A stretch of 64,000 nucleotides of DNA. Source: Streptomyces lienomycini (lineage in GTDB: Bacteria > Actinomycetota > Actinomycetes > Streptomycetales > Streptomycetaceae). Of the stretch, positions 17,996-64,000 are shown piece by piece. The stretch spans positions 124,001-188,000 of the forward strand of contig NZ_CP116257.1 of the NCBI RefSeq assembly GCF_027947595.1. The letters are read 5' to 3'. The stretch's first letter is position 1, and the number at the start of each line of letters is the position of its first letter. The notes under the pieces were generated by a model. It ran no database searches, was not told where the DNA came from, and worked only from the letters and a program-made list of their open reading frames with translations. The position numbers and the translations under genes were made by a program.

Positions 17996-18228
17996 CCACT
18001 CCCGGGGGTGGGCCCCGCAGTACCGCGGAGGGACCGGGGGCACGCCGTGCGTCGGCCCCGACACCGGTGCCGCCTCCGGCGATCGACGACGCCGCGCTCG
18101 GCGTCACGCTGGTGAACCGGGCCGACGGGGCGACCGTCCGGGCGCTGCGCTCCTGGAGTCGGCGCTGTGCCGAGGCGGCACCCGTCCGTCGTCCGTGCCC
18201 GGCCCGTACGGCGTACTGGTCCTCGGCC

Positions 18229-54382: not shown

Positions 54383-54691
54383 ATGATGACGTCAGTCGAC
54401 ACTGACCTGATCCGGGTCCTGGCGGACCCGCTCAGGCTGCGGATCGTGACCCTGCTCGCCAAAGAGACGCTGTGCACCACCCACCTCGTGGAGGAGACCG
54501 GTGCCCGGCAGACCAACCTCTCCAACCACCTGAGAGTGCTGCGCGAGGCCGGCGTCGTCGAAACCGAGCCGTGCGGCCGCTACACGTACTACAGGCTCCG
54601 CCCGGACGTCATCGCCTCGCTCGCCGGCCAGTTCGCCGACCTGGCCGACTCCGCACGCAACGCCGTCGAGAACAAGAGGGCCTGTCCGTGA
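54383..54691 (+). CDS. arsR: ArsR-family repressor (first copy)
   Basis: A 102-residue winged-helix regulator: ADPLRLRIVTLLAKETLCTTHLVEETGARQ, TNLSNHLRVLREAGVV and a C-terminal VENKRACP. Cys residues at about 32 and 101 could take part in arsenite binding. The stop overlaps the GTG of acr3 (GTGA). It should repress the arsC and arsR-acr3 units until arsenite binds. Confidence 0.94.
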   Translation: MMTSVDTDLIRVLADPLRLRIVTLLAKETLCTTHLVEETGARQTNLSNHLRVLREAGVVETEPCGRYTYYRLRPDVIASLAGQFADLADSARNAVENKRACP

Positions 54692-55797
54692 CCCGCACCG
54701 AAGCCCCCGCGACGACCACCGAGGAGCCCTCCGTCGTCGCGAAGCTGTCGACGCTCGACCGCTTCCTCGCCGTCTGGATCCTCATCGCCATGGCCATCGG
54801 CCTCGGCCTGGGCCGAGCCATCCCGGGTCTGGACGACGCCCTTGCCAGGGTCGAGATCGGCGGCATCTCCCTGCCGATCGCCGTCGGCCTGCTGGTCATG
54901 ATGTATCCGGTCCTGGCCAAGGTCCGCTACGACAGGCTCGACGCCGTCACCGGCGATCGCAGGCTCATGGCCTCGTCGCTGGTGATCAACTGGATCGTCG
55001 GCCCGGCGGTGATGTTCGCGCTCGCCTGGATCTTCCTGCCGGACCTGCCCGAGTACCGCACCGGCCTGATCATCGTCGGCCTGGCCCGCTGCATCGCCAT
55101 GGTCATCATCTGGAACGACCTCGCCTGCGGCGACCGCGAGGCCGCCGCCGTACTCGTCGCCCTCAACTCCGTTCTCCAGGTCCTGGCGTTCGGTCTGCTC
55201 GGCTGGTTCTACCTCGACCTGCTGCCCGGCTGGCTGGGTCTGGGCGACGGCGAACGCCTGGACATCTCCATGTGGAAGATCGCCCTGAACGTCGTCATCT
55301 TCCTCGGTGTTCCACTGCTCGCGGGCTTCCTCACCCGCCGCATCGGCGAGAAGAGGCTCGGCCGCGAGAAGTACGAGTCCCGCTTCCTGCCGAGGATCGG
55401 TCCGTGGGCGCTCTACGGCCTGCTGTTCACGATCGTCATCCTGTTCGCCCTGCAGGGCAGGACCATCACCTCGCAGCCGCTGGACGTGGTCCGCATCGCG
55501 CTGCCGCTGCTGGTGTACTTCGCGGTCATGTTCTTCGGCACCTTCCTGCTGGGCAAGGCGATCGGCCTCGCCTACGACCGGACGGCCACCCTCGCCTTCA
55601 CCGCCGCCGGCAACAACTTCGAGCTGGCCATCGCCGTCGCCATCGCCACTTTCGGTGTCACCTCCGGCCAGGCCCTGTCCGGCGTGGTGGGTCCGCTCAT
55701 CGAGGTGCCCGTCCTGATCGGCCTCGTCTATGTTTCGCTGGCCTGGCGCAAGAAGTTCACCCCGTCCGCTCCGACCACCGAGGGCAGAGGCTACTGA
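54688..55797 (+). CDS. acr3: ACR3-family arsenite efflux permease
   Basis: A 369-residue ten-helix transporter of the ACR3/BASS fold. The conserved Cys is in VGLARCIAMVIIWNDLACGD (about 130) and the helix with AGNNFELAIAVAIA (about 310) is intact. It expels arsenite produced by ArsC. GTG 54688 is coupled to arsR; a TGATG overlap leads to a 20-codon ORF before the monooxygenase gene. Confidence 0.96.
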   Translation: MTRTEAPATTTEEPSVVAKLSTLDRFLAVWILIAMAIGLGLGRAIPGLDDALARVEIGGISLPIAVGLLVMMYPVLAKVRYDRLDAVTGDRRLMASSLVINWIVGPAVMFALAWIFLPDLPEYRTGLIIVGLARCIAMVIIWNDLACGDREAAAVLVALNSVLQVLAFGLLGWFYLDLLPGWLGLGDGERLDISMWKIALNVVIFLGVPLLAGFLTRRIGEKRLGREKYESRFLPRIGPWALYGLLFTIVILFALQGRTITSQPLDVVRIALPLLVYFAVMFFGTFLLGKAIGLAYDRTATLAFTAAGNNFELAIAVAIATFGVTSGQALSGVVGPLIEVPVLIGLVYVSLAWRKKFTPSAPTTEGRGY

Positions 55798-55859
55798 TGC
55801 ATTGCCTCACGGCCCGCACCGTCCGGTCCATCACGTGCGCGGCGGCGCAGGCGGCATGA
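55797..55859 (+). CDS. 20-residue ORF linking acr3 and the flavin monooxygenase gene
   Basis: MHCLTARTVRSITCAAAQAA starts within the acr3 stop (TGATG) and ends within the next start (ATGA, 55856-55859). It may be a coupling ORF that carries ribosomes between genes. The two cysteines are notable but function is unknown. Confidence 0.35.
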   Translation: MHCLTARTVRSITCAAAQAA

Positions 55860-56920
55860 CACAGCACTCCGACGTGGTGGTGATCGGCGGCGGTCAGGCA
55901 GGGCTCGCCGCCGGCTACCACCTGCGCCGCCTGGGCCTCGACTTCGTCGTCCTCGACGCCCAGGCCACCCCGGGCGGGGCCTGGCAGCACACCTGGGACT
56001 CGCTCCACCTGTTCTCCCCGGCAGCCTTCTCCTCGCTCCCCGGCCGCCTCATGCCGCCGCAGTCGGGCCAGGAGTACCCGGACGCCGGGCACCTGGTCGC
56101 CTACCTGAGCGACTACGAGAAGCGATACGACCTCCCGGTGCAGCGACCCGTCCGGGTGATCGGCGTGCACGCCGACAGCCGGCTGCTGCGAGTGGAGACC
56201 GACTCCGGCCCGTGGTACACACGCGCGGTGATCAGCGCGACCGGCACTTGGTGGCGTCCCTTCCTCCCCGCCGTCCCCGGCCGCGGCGACTTCCAGGGCA
56301 GGCAACTGCACACCGTCTCGTACCGCGGACCGCGGGACTTCGCGGGCCAACGCGTGATCGTCGTCGGGGGCGGCAACTCCGGCGCGCAGATCGCCGCCGA
56401 CCTCGCCCACGACACCGAACTGACCTGGGTGACCCGGCGTCCGCCCCGGTACCTCGCCGACGACATCGACGGCCGCGCCCTGTTCGACGCGGCCACCGCC
56501 CGACGTCGCGCCCTCGACGAGGGCCGCACCGACACCGGAGGCGTCGCCTCGCTGGGGGACGTCGTCGCCGTACCGCCCGTGCGCGAGGCCCGGGACGCCG
56601 GGCGGCTCAAAGCGTCACCCATGTTCGCCCGCCTCGACCGCGACGGCGTCGCCTGGGTCGACGGCACGCGAGCGCCCGCCGACGTGGTGATCTGGTGCAC
56701 CGGCTTCCGGCCTGCCCTCTCCCACCTGTCACCCCTGGGCCCGCGCGGCCCGCGCGGCCACATCCCCACCCAAGGCACGCGTGCAGTGGCGGACCCCCGG
56801 CTGCACCTCCTCGGATACGGAGACTGGACGGGCCCCGCCTCCGCCACGCTCATCGGCGTCGGACGGCCGGCCCGCGACGCAGCGCGGGAGATCGCCGGGC
56901 TTCTCGAAGGTGCAAGGTGA
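55856..56920 (+). CDS. ArsO-like flavin-dependent monooxygenase
   Basis: A 354-residue flavoprotein of the FMO/thioredoxin-reductase-like group: VVVIGGGQAGLAAGYHL (FAD site), VIVVGGGNSGAQIAADL (NADPH site, about 165) and WCTGFRP (ATG-type motif, about 285). It lies in the arsenic operon, as ArsO genes do; a role in organoarsenical or arsenite oxidation is inferred. Convergent with the second arsR. Confidence 0.87.
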   Translation: MTQHSDVVVIGGGQAGLAAGYHLRRLGLDFVVLDAQATPGGAWQHTWDSLHLFSPAAFSSLPGRLMPPQSGQEYPDAGHLVAYLSDYEKRYDLPVQRPVRVIGVHADSRLLRVETDSGPWYTRAVISATGTWWRPFLPAVPGRGDFQGRQLHTVSYRGPRDFAGQRVIVVGGGNSGAQIAADLAHDTELTWVTRRPPRYLADDIDGRALFDAATARRRALDEGRTDTGGVASLGDVVAVPPVREARDAGRLKASPMFARLDRDGVAWVDGTRAPADVVIWCTGFRPALSHLSPLGPRGPRGHIPTQGTRAVADPRLHLLGYGDWTGPASATLIGVGRPARDAAREIAGLLEGAR

Positions 56921-56930
56921 TCCGCGTGCG

Positions 56931-57299
56931 CTACCGAACGGCCAGCAGTTGTCCCATCGCCGCCAGTACCGACGGCTCGACCCGGTAGTAGACCCAGGTG
57001 CCGCGCCGCTCGGACGTGAGCAGGCCGGCCTCCTTGAGTTTCTTGAGGTGGTGGGAGACGGTCGGCTGCGAGACACCGACGTCGGAGATGTCGCACACGC
57101 ATGCCTCGCCGCCCTCGTGCGAGGCGACGGCCGAGAACAGCCGCAGCCGCACGGGGTCGCCGAGCGCCTTGAACATACGGGCGGTGCGCTCGGCCTCCTC
57201 GGCGGTGAAGGGACGCTCGCTCAACGGCGGGCAGCACGGCACCGCGGCGACGGGGGCCTCGGATCGTTCCAGCAGCGGCAGTGCCTTGGCATTCGACAT
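56931..57299 (-). CDS. ArsR-family repressor (second copy)
   Basis: A 122-residue ArsR protein with FKALGDPVRLRLFSAVASHE, the metal motif ACVCDISD (CxC on the recognition-side helix, about 67-69) and VSQPTVSHHLKKLKEAGLL. PCCPP near residue 22 adds further thiols. ATG 57299 lies at a palindrome. It probably controlled the flavoprotein genes to its right that are now truncated. Confidence 0.93.
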   Translation of the reverse strand: MSNAKALPLLERSEAPVAAVPCCPPLSERPFTAEEAERTARMFKALGDPVRLRLFSAVASHEGGEACVCDISDVGVSQPTVSHHLKKLKEAGLLTSERRGTWVYYRVEPSVLAAMGQLLAVR

Positions 57300-57322
57300 A
57301 CGTCTATGTTGACACATGTCGA
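57293..57322. promoter_or_regulatory. Operator candidate of the second ArsR
   Basis: TCGACAT (57293-57299) and ATGTCGA (57316-57322) are perfect inverted repeats spanning the arsR start; TATGTTGACACAT lies between them. Confidence 0.55.
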
Positions 57323-59640: not shown

Positions 59641-59664
59641 GCCGAGGAGTACGGTGAAACCAGG
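59641..59664 (+). promoter_or_regulatory. DUF5994 promoter motif, copy 1
   Basis: GCCGAGGAGTACGGTG carries the GAGGAGTA core found before the other DUF5994 genes, with TACGGT at the -10 place, 38-61 bases before the gene at 59702. This is the weakest of the four copies. Confidence 0.45.
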
Positions 59665-59701
59665 CTTGCGGTTTGCCGTCTTTGGTAGGTAGGCGAGTGC
59701 G

Positions 59702-60235
59702 ATGTCCGACCCCGACCCCCCGCGGGTGACCAGGCTCCTGCCCGACGCTGTGCATCAGGCGGTTTCGCGACCTGGAACCGCCGTGGTGCGGCTCGAGACG
59801 ACCCATGACCGGAAGGGTGCGCTCGACGGGGCGTGGTGGCCCCGCTCCCGCGACATCGCCGGTGAACTGCCCGGCCTCGTCTCCGCGCTGTCCGAGTACC
59901 TCGGGCCGATCACACGTGTCGGTCTGGACACCGACGCCTGGGACGAGCTGCCGACGCGGCTGACGATCGACGGTCGTGTCGTCCGCATCGACTCCTTCCC
60001 GGTCGGAGACGACACCGTTCTCATCACCCGGGGCAGCAATGATCTCTTCTCGCTGCTGGTGGTTCCGCCCCACACCGCGGCCGACGCGGCCCGCGCGGCC
60101 ATGGCCGCAGCCGTGCGCGCAGGCAGTCAGACGCCGGCGGAACAGATCCTCATCGACACCGGCACGGAGCGTGTGGGCCCGAGGCATGCACCCACCGCTG
60201 CGCTACGCCACGGCCGCCATGAGCCGGGCCGCTGA
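59702..60235 (+). CDS. DUF5994-family protein (paralogue 1)
   Basis: A 177-residue soluble protein. The family core is GALDGAWWPRSRDIAGELP (about 40), LGPITRVGLDTDAW and SLLVVPPHTAADAAR. Function unknown. It ends convergently with and 33 bases inside paralogue 2. The 240-base gap upstream (59462-59701) holds no gene beyond small decayed frames. Confidence 0.88.
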   Translation: MSDPDPPRVTRLLPDAVHQAVSRPGTAVVRLETTHDRKGALDGAWWPRSRDIAGELPGLVSALSEYLGPITRVGLDTDAWDELPTRLTIDGRVVRIDSFPVGDDTVLITRGSNDLFSLLVVPPHTAADAARAAMAAAVRAGSQTPAEQILIDTGTERVGPRHAPTAALRHGRHEPGR

Positions 60236-60604
60236 CGACGCGCTCGTCGGGGGCGGCACCACGAGGAGATCCCAACGGCCCGCAGTGTAGGACTGCAGCA
60301 GGATCCTGTGCGGGTTGAGCACCTCGGTGAATCGGTCGACCGCCACCTCGTAGCCGTTGACGACGACCACGCCGTGCGGGAGAGGCTGCCAGTGGCGGGG
60401 ATTGACGGCCACGTGGGTGAGCCGTCCCCACAGCGGATCGATCACGTCGGCCAGTTCGCCGAGTTCTCGTGCCAGGTCGCGGGTCCGTGGCCACCACGCG
60501 CCGTCCGGACGGCCGAAGCGGCTGGCGGATCCGAGGACGAGGCGTGCGGCACGTGGTCGGAACGGTGCCGCGTGCGGACGGAGCTGAGTGGTGTTCATGA
60601 TCAT
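60203..60604 (-). CDS. DUF5994-family protein (paralogue 2)
   Basis: A 133-residue member: GRPDGAWWPRTRDLARELGE, LWGRLTHVAVNPRHW and RWDLLVVPPPTSA. It is shorter than its relatives at the C-terminus. ATG 60604 or 60598. The shared promoter motif lies at 60698-60729 upstream in matching orientation. Confidence 0.9.
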   Translation of the reverse strand: MIMNTTQLRPHAAPFRPRAARLVLGSASRFGRPDGAWWPRTRDLARELGELADVIDPLWGRLTHVAVNPRHWQPLPHGVVVVNGYEVAVDRFTEVLNPHRILLQSYTAGRWDLLVVPPPTSASSAARLMAAVA

Positions 60605-60697
60605 GAGGAAAAAACCTGACTGCGGGCCTGCGCCGGCTGACGGCGCGCCCGGTGGTGGGTGAGCGAGGACGGGACCGGCGGCGCCGGTGCACGAAAG

Positions 60698-60729
60698 CCC
60701 TCGAAGTCCTCAGGCTACTCCTCGACGAG
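60698..60729 (-). promoter_or_regulatory. DUF5994 promoter motif, copy 2
   Basis: On the minus strand CTCGTCGAGGAGTAGCCTG continues with AGGACTTCGAGGG. It matches copy 4 at 27 of 32 positions. TAGCCT is a plausible -10 and TTGTCG lies 15 bases further upstream as a weak -35. Confidence 0.65.
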
Positions 60730-60793
60730 CCCCGACAAGAGGCTTCGGCCTCATCGGGTGGACTGCTCCCGGCGTACGGCCTGGTCGGGCGCC

Positions 60794-60820
60794 GCGAAGA
60801 GTAGGCTGGAGGAACCGGGG
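60794..60820 (+). promoter_or_regulatory. DUF5994 promoter motif, copy 3
   Basis: GCGAAGAGTAGGCTGGAGGA then ACCGGGG, with TAGGCT as -10, about 93 bases before paralogue 3 and in the same direction as that gene. Confidence 0.6.
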
Positions 60821-60912
60821 ACACTCCGCGCACGGGCATTTCGCGTCTGTGCCGTTTTCGGTGATCGAATACGCCGGGTCGGCTCAGGCCCGCCCGGGGC
60901 AGGGTTCGCGTC

Positions 60913-61503
60913 ATGACTGCGACCGTCTCCCCTCCGACGACGTCCGAAGACCGGCGTCCCACATCCCCCGTGCGTCTCTCGCTCGCCCCCGCCGGCTCGG
61001 CACCGCTCCTGCTGGACGGCGCCTGGTGGCCGCGTTCGCGTGATCTCACCGCCGAACTGCCGGCCCTGGCGTCCGTTCTCGATCCGCTGTGGGGGCGGAT
61101 CACCCGGATCACGGTGAACCCCGCCCAGTGGCCGGTCGTCCCGCGGAAGGTGCCTGTCGCCGGGCATGTGGTGAAGGTGGGCTGGTTCCGCTTCGAGCAG
61201 GACGAGCACGAGTTGCTGCTGCTCTCCTACCACGTGGGCCGCTGGAACCTGCTGGTCGTTCCCCCGCAGACGCCTCCGGCCGCGGCCGCCTGGCTGATGG
61301 CCGCTGCGAGTGACCCGCGCCGGACAGCGACCGCGAGCAGCCTGCTGGCGGATGCCGCGCGTCTGACGGTGACCGCCGAGGCCGACCGCACCAGGGAAGC
61401 GGTGTGGGAGTCCGAAGGAGGACATGGAGCCGGTGCTTCCGTCATTTCTCCATGGCTTCGAGTCGCCGTCGCCACACCGGATGACCGGCCGGAAAGGGTG
61501 TGA
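60913..61503 (+). CDS. DUF5994-family protein (paralogue 3)
   Basis: A 196-residue member with LLLDGAWWPRSRDLTAELP, LDPLWGRITRITVNPAQW and RWNLLVVPPQTPP. Longer C-terminus than the others. A small membrane-protein gene follows after 4 bases, so the two are probably co-transcribed. The 308-base gap upstream (60605-60912) holds two copies of the DUF5994 promoter motif in opposite orientation and no gene. Confidence 0.9.
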   Translation: MTATVSPPTTSEDRRPTSPVRLSLAPAGSAPLLLDGAWWPRSRDLTAELPALASVLDPLWGRITRITVNPAQWPVVPRKVPVAGHVVKVGWFRFEQDEHELLLLSYHVGRWNLLVVPPQTPPAAAAWLMAAASDPRRTATASSLLADAARLTVTAEADRTREAVWESEGGHGAGASVISPWLRVAVATPDDRPERV

Positions 61504-61507
61504 GGCC

Positions 61508-61789
61508 ATGGACATCCTCGTGACGGTGTTCGTGCTGCTGGCGGTGATCGCGGCAGGCGCGTTCCTCATCCACCGCCTGAACTCCCAGCACGGGGGCAGA
61601 AGTGCCGCCTTCCACTACGGCCGCAGCGGTGTCGTCGCACCAGACCGGAAGACCGACGAAGGGCCGGCGGTACGCCGACGGTCCCCAGTCGCGAACGACG
61701 CCGGCGAGCGCCGGGGCTCCCGGTACGGCGGACGCGGACGGCTGCGTCCTGGACGCCGCCGTACCCACGGCGGCGTCTCGCCCCGCTAA
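61508..61789 (+). CDS. Small membrane protein with basic tail
   Basis: A 93-residue protein: one N-terminal helix (MDILVTVFVLLAVIAAGAFL) and a long Arg/Gly/Ser-rich cytoplasmic tail. It follows a DUF5994 gene by 4 bases. Its TAA overlaps the TAG of the convergent desaturase gene. No family recognised. Confidence 0.65.
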   Translation: MDILVTVFVLLAVIAAGAFLIHRLNSQHGGRSAAFHYGRSGVVAPDRKTDEGPAVRRRSPVANDAGERRGSRYGGRGRLRPGRRRTHGGVSPR

Positions 61790-62826
61790 GTGGGGACGCG
61801 GGTCCGTCGGAGCGGGGCGCCGGCGTCGTGGAGGCTGGTGAGTGCCAACCGGTAGGAGGCGACCAGGCCCGTTTCCGCGTAGTCGACACCCAGGTCCCGG
61901 CAGTACCGCCGGACGATGGCGCGGGCCTTGCGCAGGTTGGGGCTGGGCATGCTCGGGAACAGGTGGTGCTCGATCTGGTGGTTCAGGCCGCCGAGCGCCA
62001 GGTCGGTGAACCGGCCGCCGTTGACGTTGCGTGAGGTCAGCACCTGGCGGCGGAGGAAGTCGGGGCGGTCGTCGGCCGTCAGGATCGGCATCCCCTTGTG
62101 GTTGGGTGCGAAGGCCGAACCGAGGTAGACGCCGAACAGGCACTGGTGGACGGCGAGGAAGGCGATCGCCATCCCGGGCGGCAGGACCCAGAACAGGGCG
62201 GCCAGGTAGGCGGCGCAGTGCCCCAGGAGCAGAGCGCCGTCGACCGCCCGGCGTTTGAGCCGGCGGTTGGCCATGGCCCTGCCGCTCGCCACGTGCAGGT
62301 TGAAGCCCTCCAGCGTGAGCAGGGGAAAGAAGAGGAACGCCTGCCAGCGGCCGAGCAGGCGGGGCAGTCCGGTGGCGGCGCGGGCCTGGTCCGGGGACCA
62401 GACGAGCAGGTCGGGTCCGATGTCGGGGTCGAGGTTCTCGGTGTTGGGGTTGGCGTGGTGACGGGTGTGCTTGTCCTGCCACCAGCCGTAGCTCATGCCG
62501 ATCGACGCGCCGGCGATCCGTCCGGACAACTCGCTGGCCCGGCGGCGGCGGAACACCTGCCGGTGGGCCATGTCATGGGCGACCAGGGCGACTTGCCCGT
62601 ACATCACGGCCAGGAACGCGGCGATCGCCAGTGTCCACCAGGAGGCGCCGACGAGGACGAACGCGGCCCATCCGGCGGCGTAGAGCCCGGTCACGGCGGT
62701 GATGCGTAACGTGTAGTAGCCGGGGCGGCGCCCCAGCAGTCCGGCGTCCGCGATCTTCTTCGACAGCCGGGCGAAGTCGCTGCCGGGAGTGTCGGGGCGC
62801 GTGGCGGTGGTGGTGGCCATGGTCAT
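61786..62826 (-). CDS. Membrane fatty acid desaturase
   Basis: A 346-residue di-iron desaturase with the three His boxes HDMAHRQ (about 92), HTRHH (about 128) and HQIEHHLFP (about 290), and four membrane helices. It introduces double bonds into acyl chains and would raise membrane fluidity. ATG 62826 is used; ATG 62820 is possible. A DUF5994 gene lies 100 bases upstream on the same strand and may be co-transcribed. Confidence 0.93.
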   Translation of the reverse strand: MTMATTTATRPDTPGSDFARLSKKIADAGLLGRRPGYYTLRITAVTGLYAAGWAAFVLVGASWWTLAIAAFLAVMYGQVALVAHDMAHRQVFRRRRASELSGRIAGASIGMSYGWWQDKHTRHHANPNTENLDPDIGPDLLVWSPDQARAATGLPRLLGRWQAFLFFPLLTLEGFNLHVASGRAMANRRLKRRAVDGALLLGHCAAYLAALFWVLPPGMAIAFLAVHQCLFGVYLGSAFAPNHKGMPILTADDRPDFLRRQVLTSRNVNGGRFTDLALGGLNHQIEHHLFPSMPSPNLRKARAIVRRYCRDLGVDYAETGLVASYRLALTSLHDAGAPLRRTRVPT

Positions 62827-62926
62827 GAGGACGTCTCTCTCAGAAGCGGGCGGATGACTCGGGGCGGCCCCAGGGCGAGTTGGGCGCGGGGAGCGGGTGC
62901 GTACATGGACGTGCCCGCGGCGGCTC

Positions 62927-63436
62927 CTACCACCGAGGGGCCCGGGTGCCCCGCCCGGTGGGTCCCACACGGCCGCGCGGACCTGCCGCCGCCGTCGGGG
63001 CCGGGGCTTCTCCGTCGGCGCCGGGCCGCCGGTCGTCCAGGGCGGCGGTCGTGAGGAGAGCGGCTGCTTCCTCCGTCGCGTCCGGCGGGATCACCTGCAG
63101 ATCCCAACGGCCGAGCCCTGGGGAGAGCAGGACGACCCGGTCCGGGGCGTGCGGAGAGGCGGGGGCCTTGTGCAGGCGGACGACCTGGTTGGCGACGAAC
63201 ATGCGCCCCGGTGCCGCCGACCAGGCCGCGGCGTCTACGGTGACGCCGGTGATGTCGCCCCACGCTCTCGGCAGCGCGGCGAGCATCTTCGGGAGCTGTG
63301 TCAGAAGATCGCGGGAGTACGGCCACCACACTCCGTCGATCCGGCGCGGCAGCGCGCCGTGCGGCGCGAGACGCAGGCGGACGAGGGGCAGGGGCGGGGA
63401 CAGGGTGGACGGTGCGGTGGGGACTGTGGCGATCAC
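62927..63436 (-). CDS. DUF5994-family protein (paralogue 4)
   Basis: A 169-residue member with RRIDGVWWPYSRDLLTQLP, AWGDITGVTVDAAAW and RWDLQVIPPDATEE. GTG 63436 fits the family N-terminus. The shared promoter motif lies about 276 bases upstream, in the 394-base gap 63437-63830 that otherwise contains no evident gene. Confidence 0.9.
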   Translation of the reverse strand: MIATVPTAPSTLSPPLPLVRLRLAPHGALPRRIDGVWWPYSRDLLTQLPKMLAALPRAWGDITGVTVDAAAWSAAPGRMFVANQVVRLHKAPASPHAPDRVVLLSPGLGRWDLQVIPPDATEEAAALLTTAALDDRRPGADGEAPAPTAAAGPRGRVGPTGRGTRAPRW

Positions 63437-63711
63437 GTGGGATCTCTCTGACGAGTTGGGTGCCGGCCGGTTCGGCAGGGCACGGCGGCCGACGGTCCGC
63501 GGGCTGTCGGGCAGCGCCGGACGTGGCCGGTGGATCCGGGTGCTGGAGGTCGTGCCTGGCCGCTCTTGCCGGAGGAAAGCGCCGACGACCGCCGCGAGTT
63601 CGCGGGAAGGGAGTCGGCGGGCGTATGCGGGGTGAAGGGGGGAGACCCTTCCGCGTGACGAACGCCGGTGGATACCGGGGTGGAGCCGGTCCGCCACCGG
63701 CGTGCCTGATG

Positions 63712-63743
63712 CCCTCGGTCTCCTCAGACTACTCCTCGGCGAG
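63712..63743 (-). promoter_or_regulatory. DUF5994 promoter motif, copy 4
   Basis: On the minus strand CTCGCCGAGGAGTAGTCTG continues with AGGAGACCGAGGG, with TAGTCT as -10, directed towards paralogue 4. Confidence 0.65.
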
Positions 63744-63830: not shown

Positions 63831-64000
63831 TCATGGCGGCGGTACGCGCAGGGCGAGCAGGGCCACGTCGTCGGTGCTGCCGGGCGGCAGGTGGGCGAGC
63901 ACCTTTCCGCACAGCCTGTCCAGCGGTTCGTGGACGAGAGTGAGCGCGTGCCGGAGCAGCCGGTCCAGGCCCGTGTCGAGGTCGCTGCCCGGTGTCTCGA
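63831..64000 (-). CDS. C-terminal end of a second PP2C (SpoIIE-type) phosphatase, cut by window edge
   Basis: The final 55 residues read GSDLDTGLDRLLRHAL, EPLDRLCGKVLAHLPPG and STDDVALLALRVPPP, closely matching the C-terminus of the PAS-GAF-PP2C protein at 18.2-20.2 kb. The STDD metal motif is intact. The 5' end lies beyond the window. Confidence 0.85.
   Translation of the reverse strand, partial: ETPGSDLDTGLDRLLRHALTLVHEPLDRLCGKVLAHLPPGSTDDVALLALRVPPP

Follow-up and report, generated by a model that had tools for sequence, protein, structure and literature searches.

A -10-like motif and a candidate structured RNA leader shared by DUF5994 genes and several signalling genes of Streptomyces and related bacteria

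We analysed a stretch of 64,000 nucleotides (nt) of Streptomyces lienomycini (the window; 124–188 kb of the 7.86 Mb single-contig genome, NZ_CP116257.1) that carries four genes of the family DUF5994 (PF19457), each preceded by a short promoter-like motif and some also by a structured RNA leader. The four genes lie at 59.7–63.4 kb of the window and each scores above the Pfam cut-off; a PF19457 search of the 7.86 Mb genome found no fifth match. Pairwise identity among the four proteins is 38–55%, and the copies are therefore not the product of a recent duplication. The closest named relatives across copy 3 (92–96% identity) are Streptomyces cellulosae, Streptomyces sp. SID14436, S. composti, S. 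ardesiacus, S. griseoincarnatus and S. rochei. DUF5994 was present in 79 of 121 genomes of a genus sample and in 10 of 198 genomes of a phylum sample, the window's genome being included in both counts. The term DUF5994 was not found in the literature searched.

An initial annotation of this DNA had proposed that each DUF5994 copy has a GAGTA motif upstream, which our counts bear out. With up to one mismatch, GAGGAGTANNNT occurred at 10 sites in the window compared with 3.26 in shuffled sequences, and none of 100 shuffles reached 10. Four of these sites belong to the DUF5994 copies, with exact matches at 59644, 60712 and 63726 and a one-mismatch match at 60796; the remaining six fall elsewhere. 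Over 32 bases, copies 2 and 4 agreed at 27 positions, as annotated, and the best of 300 shuffled pairs reached 20. Copies 3 and 1 had been said to match less well, and indeed scored 18–22 of 32 against copies 2 and 4, which is hardly above the shuffle maximum and makes them weak on their own over this length. The 17-base form GAGGAGTAGNCTGAGGA has exactly two sites in the genome, at copies 2 and 4, and no site with one mismatch; in this form the motif is thus not equally common at unrelated promoters. The looser CGGAGTASNSTGRA (up to one mismatch) was not commoner in the genome than its reversed control (29 vs 28).

The loci that we fetched from relatives held 142 distinct DUF5994 domains, 136 of them with enough upstream sequence, and GGAGTANNNT lay 100–260 nt before the domain in 93 of these 136 cases. 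The controls yielded 2/134 further upstream, 0/141 in the coding region and 0/136 for the reversed motif. Together with conservation in six close relatives (Table 1), this upholds the earlier claim that the motif is oriented towards the genes and has been kept. In 23 of the 136 cases GGAGTANNNT was on the opposite strand, which divergent gene pairs may explain. A profile anchored on 135 leaders, many of which had trained our motif-selected model R1 (see below), read G(G)AGTA(C/G)NNTGRA about 14 nt before the leader. Among 96 matches outside the R1 training set, 81 had GTANNNT no more than 16 nt ahead of the leader and none had it in either of two intervals further up; the profile of these 96 matches was more smeared than that of the 135. 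These sequence patterns suggest that the motif serves as a -10-like element at the promoter end of a longer unit with a transcribed structured RNA. By eye, TTCCGGAA sites, some of them paired, were seen at the place of a -35 element upstream of the leader in five loci of the family labelled f68 (L240, L241, L243, L244 and L245), and they look like those of a DNA-binding activator.

In genes that resemble copy 3 (class A), the motif is followed by a leader of about 100 nt that runs from the predicted start site to the start codon. Its rough consensus is ACCGRGAGCAYTTCGCACACCGGCTYCCACGCCGGTGTCGTTCYCGGCGA..CCGGGCCG..CGGCCCGGGGACRGGTCCGCGTCATG (alignment A1, 55 distinct rows), and its first A sits 7 nt past the last base of the -10 motif, where the transcript is expected to start. 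We searched with two covariance models, R1 built from 55 motif-selected leaders and R2 built from 89 diverse matches; copies 2 and 3 belong to the R1 set and neither is in the R2 set. Besides the leaders of these two copies, the window holds one leader-like copy that precedes no DUF5994 gene (Table 1). It has a diverged motif ahead of it (by eye), is flanked by a sensor kinase gene on one side and a SpoIIE phosphatase gene on the other and is probably a relict. Neither model matched upstream of copy 1 or at the 5′ region of copy 4, where the motif is followed by ACCGAGGGCA, only the first bases of the leader. The likely start of copy 4 is near 63436, about 285 nt from its motif, so that this 5′ region is atypical. 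The start codon stood exactly at the model end in 48 of 52 and 61 of 70 matches, a position that the model's own ATG favours.

Table 1. Features of the DUF5994 region and leader-like copies in the window (ORF, open reading frame).
Feature	Position (nt)	Strand	Remarks
DUF5994 copy 1	59702..60235	+	PF19457 131.4 bits; class B: promoter motif, no structured leader
DUF5994 copy 2	60203..60604	-	PF19457 107.6 bits
DUF5994 copy 3	60913..61503	+	PF19457 134.3 bits
DUF5994 copy 4	62927..63436	-	PF19457 106 bits
-10-like motif of copy 1, GAGGAGTACGGT	59644..59655	+	exact match; 50–100% kept in 6 relatives (50% in L296)
-10-like motif of copy 2, GAGGAGTAGCCTGAGGA	60707..60723	-	one of two exact genome sites; 100% identical in 6/6 relatives
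-10-like motif of copy 3, GAAGAGTAGGCT	60796..60807	+	one-mismatch match; 95–100% kept in 6 relatives
-10-like motif of copy 4, GAGGAGTAGTCTGAGGA	63721..63737	-	second exact genome site; 87–96% kept in 6 relatives
Leader of copy 3 with P1, P2, P3	60812..60915	+	R1 82.0 bits, E 1.3e-17; R2 79.7 bits, E 7.4e-16; row 1 of A1; ends at ATG
Leader of copy 2, diverged, reaching ATG	60602..60707	-	R1 39.4 bits, E 1.5e-7; R2 33.9 bits, E 1e-5
Leader-like copy, no DUF5994 gene	18031..18119	+	R1 37.0 bits, E 5.9e-7; R2 39.4 bits, E 6.4e-7
Small membrane peptide, downstream of copy 3	61508..61789	+	ORF
PAS/GAF/SpoIIE phosphatase gene, 3′ end	63831..64000	-	ORF L427:832-3075 (-); SpoIIE 150.8 bits; ends 93 nt before copy 4 motif

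The leader fold comprises P1, which encloses P2 and is capped by it in a two-part hairpin, and a G+C-rich hairpin P3. The P2 loop mostly has six bases with the consensus UCCCAC (positions 27–32), and the P3 loop varies. RNAalifold recovered P1, most of P3 and part of P2 from A1, which was aligned with MAFFT without use of structure. In this alignment 90.3% of cells were paired in the named structure, compared with 36–49% when the structure was slid along it, and 78 cells carried a double change, compared with 34.2 after shuffling. Three further alignments were fitted to models and are thereby biased towards the structure by construction; their double-change cells numbered 180 vs 59.7 shuffled (A4), 109 vs 36.2 (A3) and 89 vs 34.5 (A8). 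Both sides changed in 22 (A4), 19 (A3) and 21 (A8) of 26 pairs, and none of 500 shuffles was as high in any measure. Overlap with the training sets was small, at 0 of 70 rows in A4, 2 of 51 in A3 and 2 of 27 in A8, the last being fitted to R2 and compared with the R2 set.

A structure-free alignment of 159 leaders pointed to the same helices. The six top covarying pairs of 4,950 all fell within P1–P3, as did 8 of the best 14. Each helix contributed one of the top three pairs, whose tree-based E values were 0.03–0.05; all other pairs had E above 1. The null was home-made, and one alignment simulated under it exceeded the observed top score. The significance of single pairs is thus modest, and the ranking of the pairs is very unlikely to arise by chance. 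In each of P1, P2 and P3, none of 100 permutations gave arm co-adaptation as good as that observed. We conclude that compensatory changes support all three helices.

This result bears on whether the unit is anything other than a promoter. The motif could be bound by an activator or an alternative sigma factor, with the conservation downstream of it due to a DNA operator rather than an RNA; class-B genes, which have the same motif and no leader, would fit this, as would the activator-like paired TTCCGGAA sites of f68 seen by eye. However, the three helices show compensatory as well as G-U changes, the P3 loops vary and the end is fixed at the start codon, all of which fits an RNA, and we regard a promoter alone as an improbable explanation.

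Many soil actinobacteria carry the leader. In the genus sample, R1 matched 81 of 121 genomes (E≤0.1); in a family sample it matched 88 of 150 genomes, from 12 of 17 genera (E≤0.01), and in a class sample 29 of 296 genomes, from 11 of 114 genera. R2 matched in 42 of 394 genomes and 15 of 137 genera of a larger class sample, including other families of the class (tool labels f68, f69, f77, f95 and f99). These searches score only part of the candidates, and matches near E 0.001–0.01 may be due to chance.

In the genus sample, eight of the 121 genomes had a leader match and no DUF5994 match (G001, G030, G032, G088, G094, G109, G110 and G118); two of these leader matches were weak (G088, E 0.048; G032, E 9.5e-4), and in G001 and G118 the leader stands before an unnamed family of about 220 amino acids. 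Six of the 121 had DUF5994 and no leader match. Both sets speak against autoregulation, a mode of control seen in some RNA-binding proteins, in which DUF5994 would bind the leader of its own gene. DUF5994 follows the leader more often than any other gene does (158 of 204 examined), as autoregulation would have it, but its model also has no clear match in the PDB, and we consider this explanation very improbable.

The 204 distinct leaders were chosen and not drawn at random, so that the context counts are not frequencies: the following gene was DUF5994 in 158, the unnamed family in 14, STAS in 8, CBS in 4 and none of these in 20, with the STAS and CBS counts resting on two-sequence profiles each. 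Several of the 20 look like truncated DUF5994 genes or contig ends. Pfam confirmed STAS in five proteins behind leaders (L200, L217, L188, L408 and L410) and CBS in two. The proteins of L418 and L422 match AlaDh_PNT_N and AlaDh_PNT_C; their best NCBIfam model, alaDH, scores far under its cut-off, and the label 'PNT-type' is therefore loose. By likeness, AlaDh_PNT-like genes also stand behind the leaders of L415, L417 and L419. Five members of the unnamed family were scanned and gave no Pfam match. A tRNA gene lies about 300–470 bases upstream of the STAS leader in L200 and L188.

Partner-switching control of SigB-type sigma factors commonly involves SpoIIE phosphatases and STAS proteins, and both recur near DUF5994. 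Leader-bearing STAS and DUF5994 genes adjoin in L188, L189, L202, L205 and L206, and the unnamed family adjoins DUF5994 in L193 and L201. Behind two further leaders, DUF5994 and STAS are joined in one chain (L249:553-1503 and L424:668-1549, both on the minus strand). In 80 named DUF5994 loci and three other sets of 40, 40 and 21, STAS-like ORFs were present in 11, 9, 2 and 8 loci and SpoIIE-like ORFs in 11, 5, 1 and 0, respectively, compared with 0 of 56 background loci for either, which were shorter and came from one genome. The window itself has one SpoIIE phosphatase gene beyond the copy 4 motif and a second beside the leader-like copy at 18031. In L189, L202, L205 and L206, an ORF of 29–32 amino acids with the conserved start M(S/A)AAVE.T.RKL lies between the leader and the STAS domain and is perhaps a translated coupling peptide.

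A good leader was also seen by eye before seemingly truncated DUF5994 genes (L185, L192, L196, L219, L220, L253 and L258), which suggests frequent duplication and decay. Gene conversion might have spread the promoter-leader segment among neighbouring genes as a mobile cassette with no shared regulatory logic. Tandem and divergent copies, the geneless copy at 18031 and the apparent truncations in L192, L196, L219 and L220 (by eye) would agree with such spread. The leaders of different families, however, diverge widely in sequence with their helices retained, and we think the cassette very unlikely.

The initial annotation had proposed that the DUF5994 genes, with a fatty acid desaturase and a small membrane peptide alongside, look like an uncharacterised stress-response group with a shared motif; this is partly supported. 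The shared motif stands, and in other genomes it is common to non-homologous genes, several of them signalling genes; the desaturase, however, is not a regular member. A desaturase like that of the window was found in 12 of the 80 named loci, six of these 12 being the closest relatives (L293–L298), and in 3/40, 0/40 and 3/21 loci of the other sets. Relatives of the membrane peptide were commoner than the desaturase in three sets (49/80, 24/40 and 6/40) and absent from the fourth (0/21). ORFs for a membrane transporter, a flavoprotein and a small ArsR-like regulator at 54472–57317 resemble, by eye, an arsenic-resistance cluster next to the DUF5994 group.

Taken together, these findings make it probable, in our view, that the motif and the leader form a translational cis-regulatory RNA on a dedicated promoter that serves a partner-switching regulon. 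The motif would be the -10 region of this promoter, the transcript would begin about 7 nt downstream of it, and the leader of about 100 nt would be the whole 5′ untranslated region. The base of P3 is predicted to end about 4 nt ahead of the likely ribosome-binding site, the conserved RGGU, and a bound metabolite, protein or physical condition might shift the leader and thereby change ribosome access. Control would most likely be exerted at translation start, since P3 ends so close to RGGU and has no conserved U-run behind it. Four or more U after P3, as in a terminator-type attenuator, were found in only 1 of 55 leaders, that of copy 2 in the window. In the predicted ensemble the RGG is mostly paired (unpaired probability 0.17–0.38 over 179 leaders), and a co-adaptation test found no conserved pairing partner for it. 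The promoter-leader unit would be common to DUF5994, STAS anti-anti-sigma, CBS and alanine-dehydrogenase-like genes and the unnamed family. The shared gene contexts and the DUF5994–STAS fusions suggest that it probably serves a small regulon tied to partner switching of a stress sigma factor.

Several observations weigh against this interpretation. Two of five measures in A1 were less decisive: 41 of 500 shuffles reached the observed 12 pairs changed on both sides (9.4 in shuffles), and 27 of 500 reached the observed value for pair types. Among the pairings that might form an alternative structure, a 2:3 pairing had 2 double-change cells vs 5.7 shuffled, an outer helix P4 and a loop-to-ribosome-site pairing showed no co-adaptation, and for an internal-loop pairing 13 of 100 permutations were as good. 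These results therefore do not support an alternative structure by which the leader would switch between two exclusive states. Copy 2 has six U after P3, a run that is broken in six relatives. Class-B genes such as copy 1 lack the leader and copy 4 has only its start, so that a complete leader is not always needed. No conserved -35 element that would point to a particular sigma factor appeared in the upstream profiles, in which spacing was taken as fixed. Finally, the link to partner switching is drawn from the gene contexts and the two fusions.

When a structured leader is shared by several unrelated genes, what it senses is usually of central importance to the cell. The leader class described here connects DUF5994, a family without a known function, with anti-anti-sigma factors, and the natural fusions provide a second line of evidence for that link. 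The class offers a way into the study of DUF5994 and a bigger alignment of greater diversity in which to look for the signal.

Rfam (4227 models) had no match in the window at the gathering score. With E≤1, eight loci gave one weak CRISPR-repeat match, and 13 loci gave two tRNA genes and two weak matches (Plastid-ycf2 and cspA), none of them on the leader. ANTAR-target RNAs are likewise actinobacterial structured RNAs that serve several genes, some overlapping ribosome sites, and in the portion of PMC8164766 considered here they consist of two stem-loops, each with a loop of six bases that has A as its first base (A1) and G as its fourth (G4). We rejected this class for the leader, whose P2 loop UCCCAC lacks A1 and G4, whose P1 encloses P2 and whose P3 loop varies. 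For SigB-homologue promoters of S. coelicolor, an excerpt of PMC8346170 gives a -10 of GGG-N-A and a -35 starting with G (GTTT or GNNT). The G-rich -10 region is a point of likeness, and the distant copy L408 alone reads GGGTAC; the leader-class consensus is GGAGTA, which does not match the SigB type. The G-start -35 of those promoters has no conserved counterpart in our profiles, where an element at variable spacing would fall outside.

A likeness was also seen to two candidate riboswitches reported in 2024 and described in part of PMC11109978. The dauA motif (SRC-36-1; 57 Streptomyces representatives) lies immediately upstream of a STAS-domain gene and forms a three-stem junction containing the ribosome site; the pntA motif (WRC-36-2; 11 Streptomyces representatives) lies upstream of a gene of the NAD(P) transhydrogenase type, with a stem that includes the ribosome-binding site. 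The main text of that paper does not use the term DUF. The 36 shared by the two labels probably denotes one source genome, that of S. avermitilis. R1 leaders likewise stand directly before STAS genes in Streptomyces (e.g. L200, L188 and L217), although in only 8 of 204 leaders, and the leader class differs in its range, which takes in DUF5994, three or more further gene families and, taxonomically, other families of the class. Folding seven STAS leaders gave no one clear junction. The leaders before AlaDh_PNT-like genes (L418 and L422 by Pfam; L415, L417 and L419 by likeness) share the gene context of pntA, and in eight such leaders RNAalifold placed a helix that encloses P3 and ends shortly before the start codon but hardly varies. 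Both comparisons are by description, and on the published descriptions dauA and pntA are likely branches of this leader class.

The ligands proposed for the two candidates, sulfate or a surrogate for dauA and a nicotinamide dinucleotide for pntA, would make the leader a metabolite riboswitch in the narrow sense. The reported STAS and NAD(P) transhydrogenase contexts (PMC11109978, in the part cited above) are seen here too. If there is one RNA class, however, neither sulfate nor NAD(H) would serve well as the ligand common to DUF5994, STAS, CBS and the unnamed family, and we find this reading doubtful. We tentatively put forward, as a possibility, that a single class of actinobacterial RNA, driven by its own promoter, coordinates a stress regulon based on partner switching, with dauA and pntA as two of its branches and a general stress signal, not sulfate or NAD(H), as its ligand. 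If dauA and pntA do belong, the two orphan candidates would become one class that can be tested and has a far broader context. Compared with these known systems, the leader class described here is a candidate cis-regulatory leader RNA that is new in its extent and its gene contexts.

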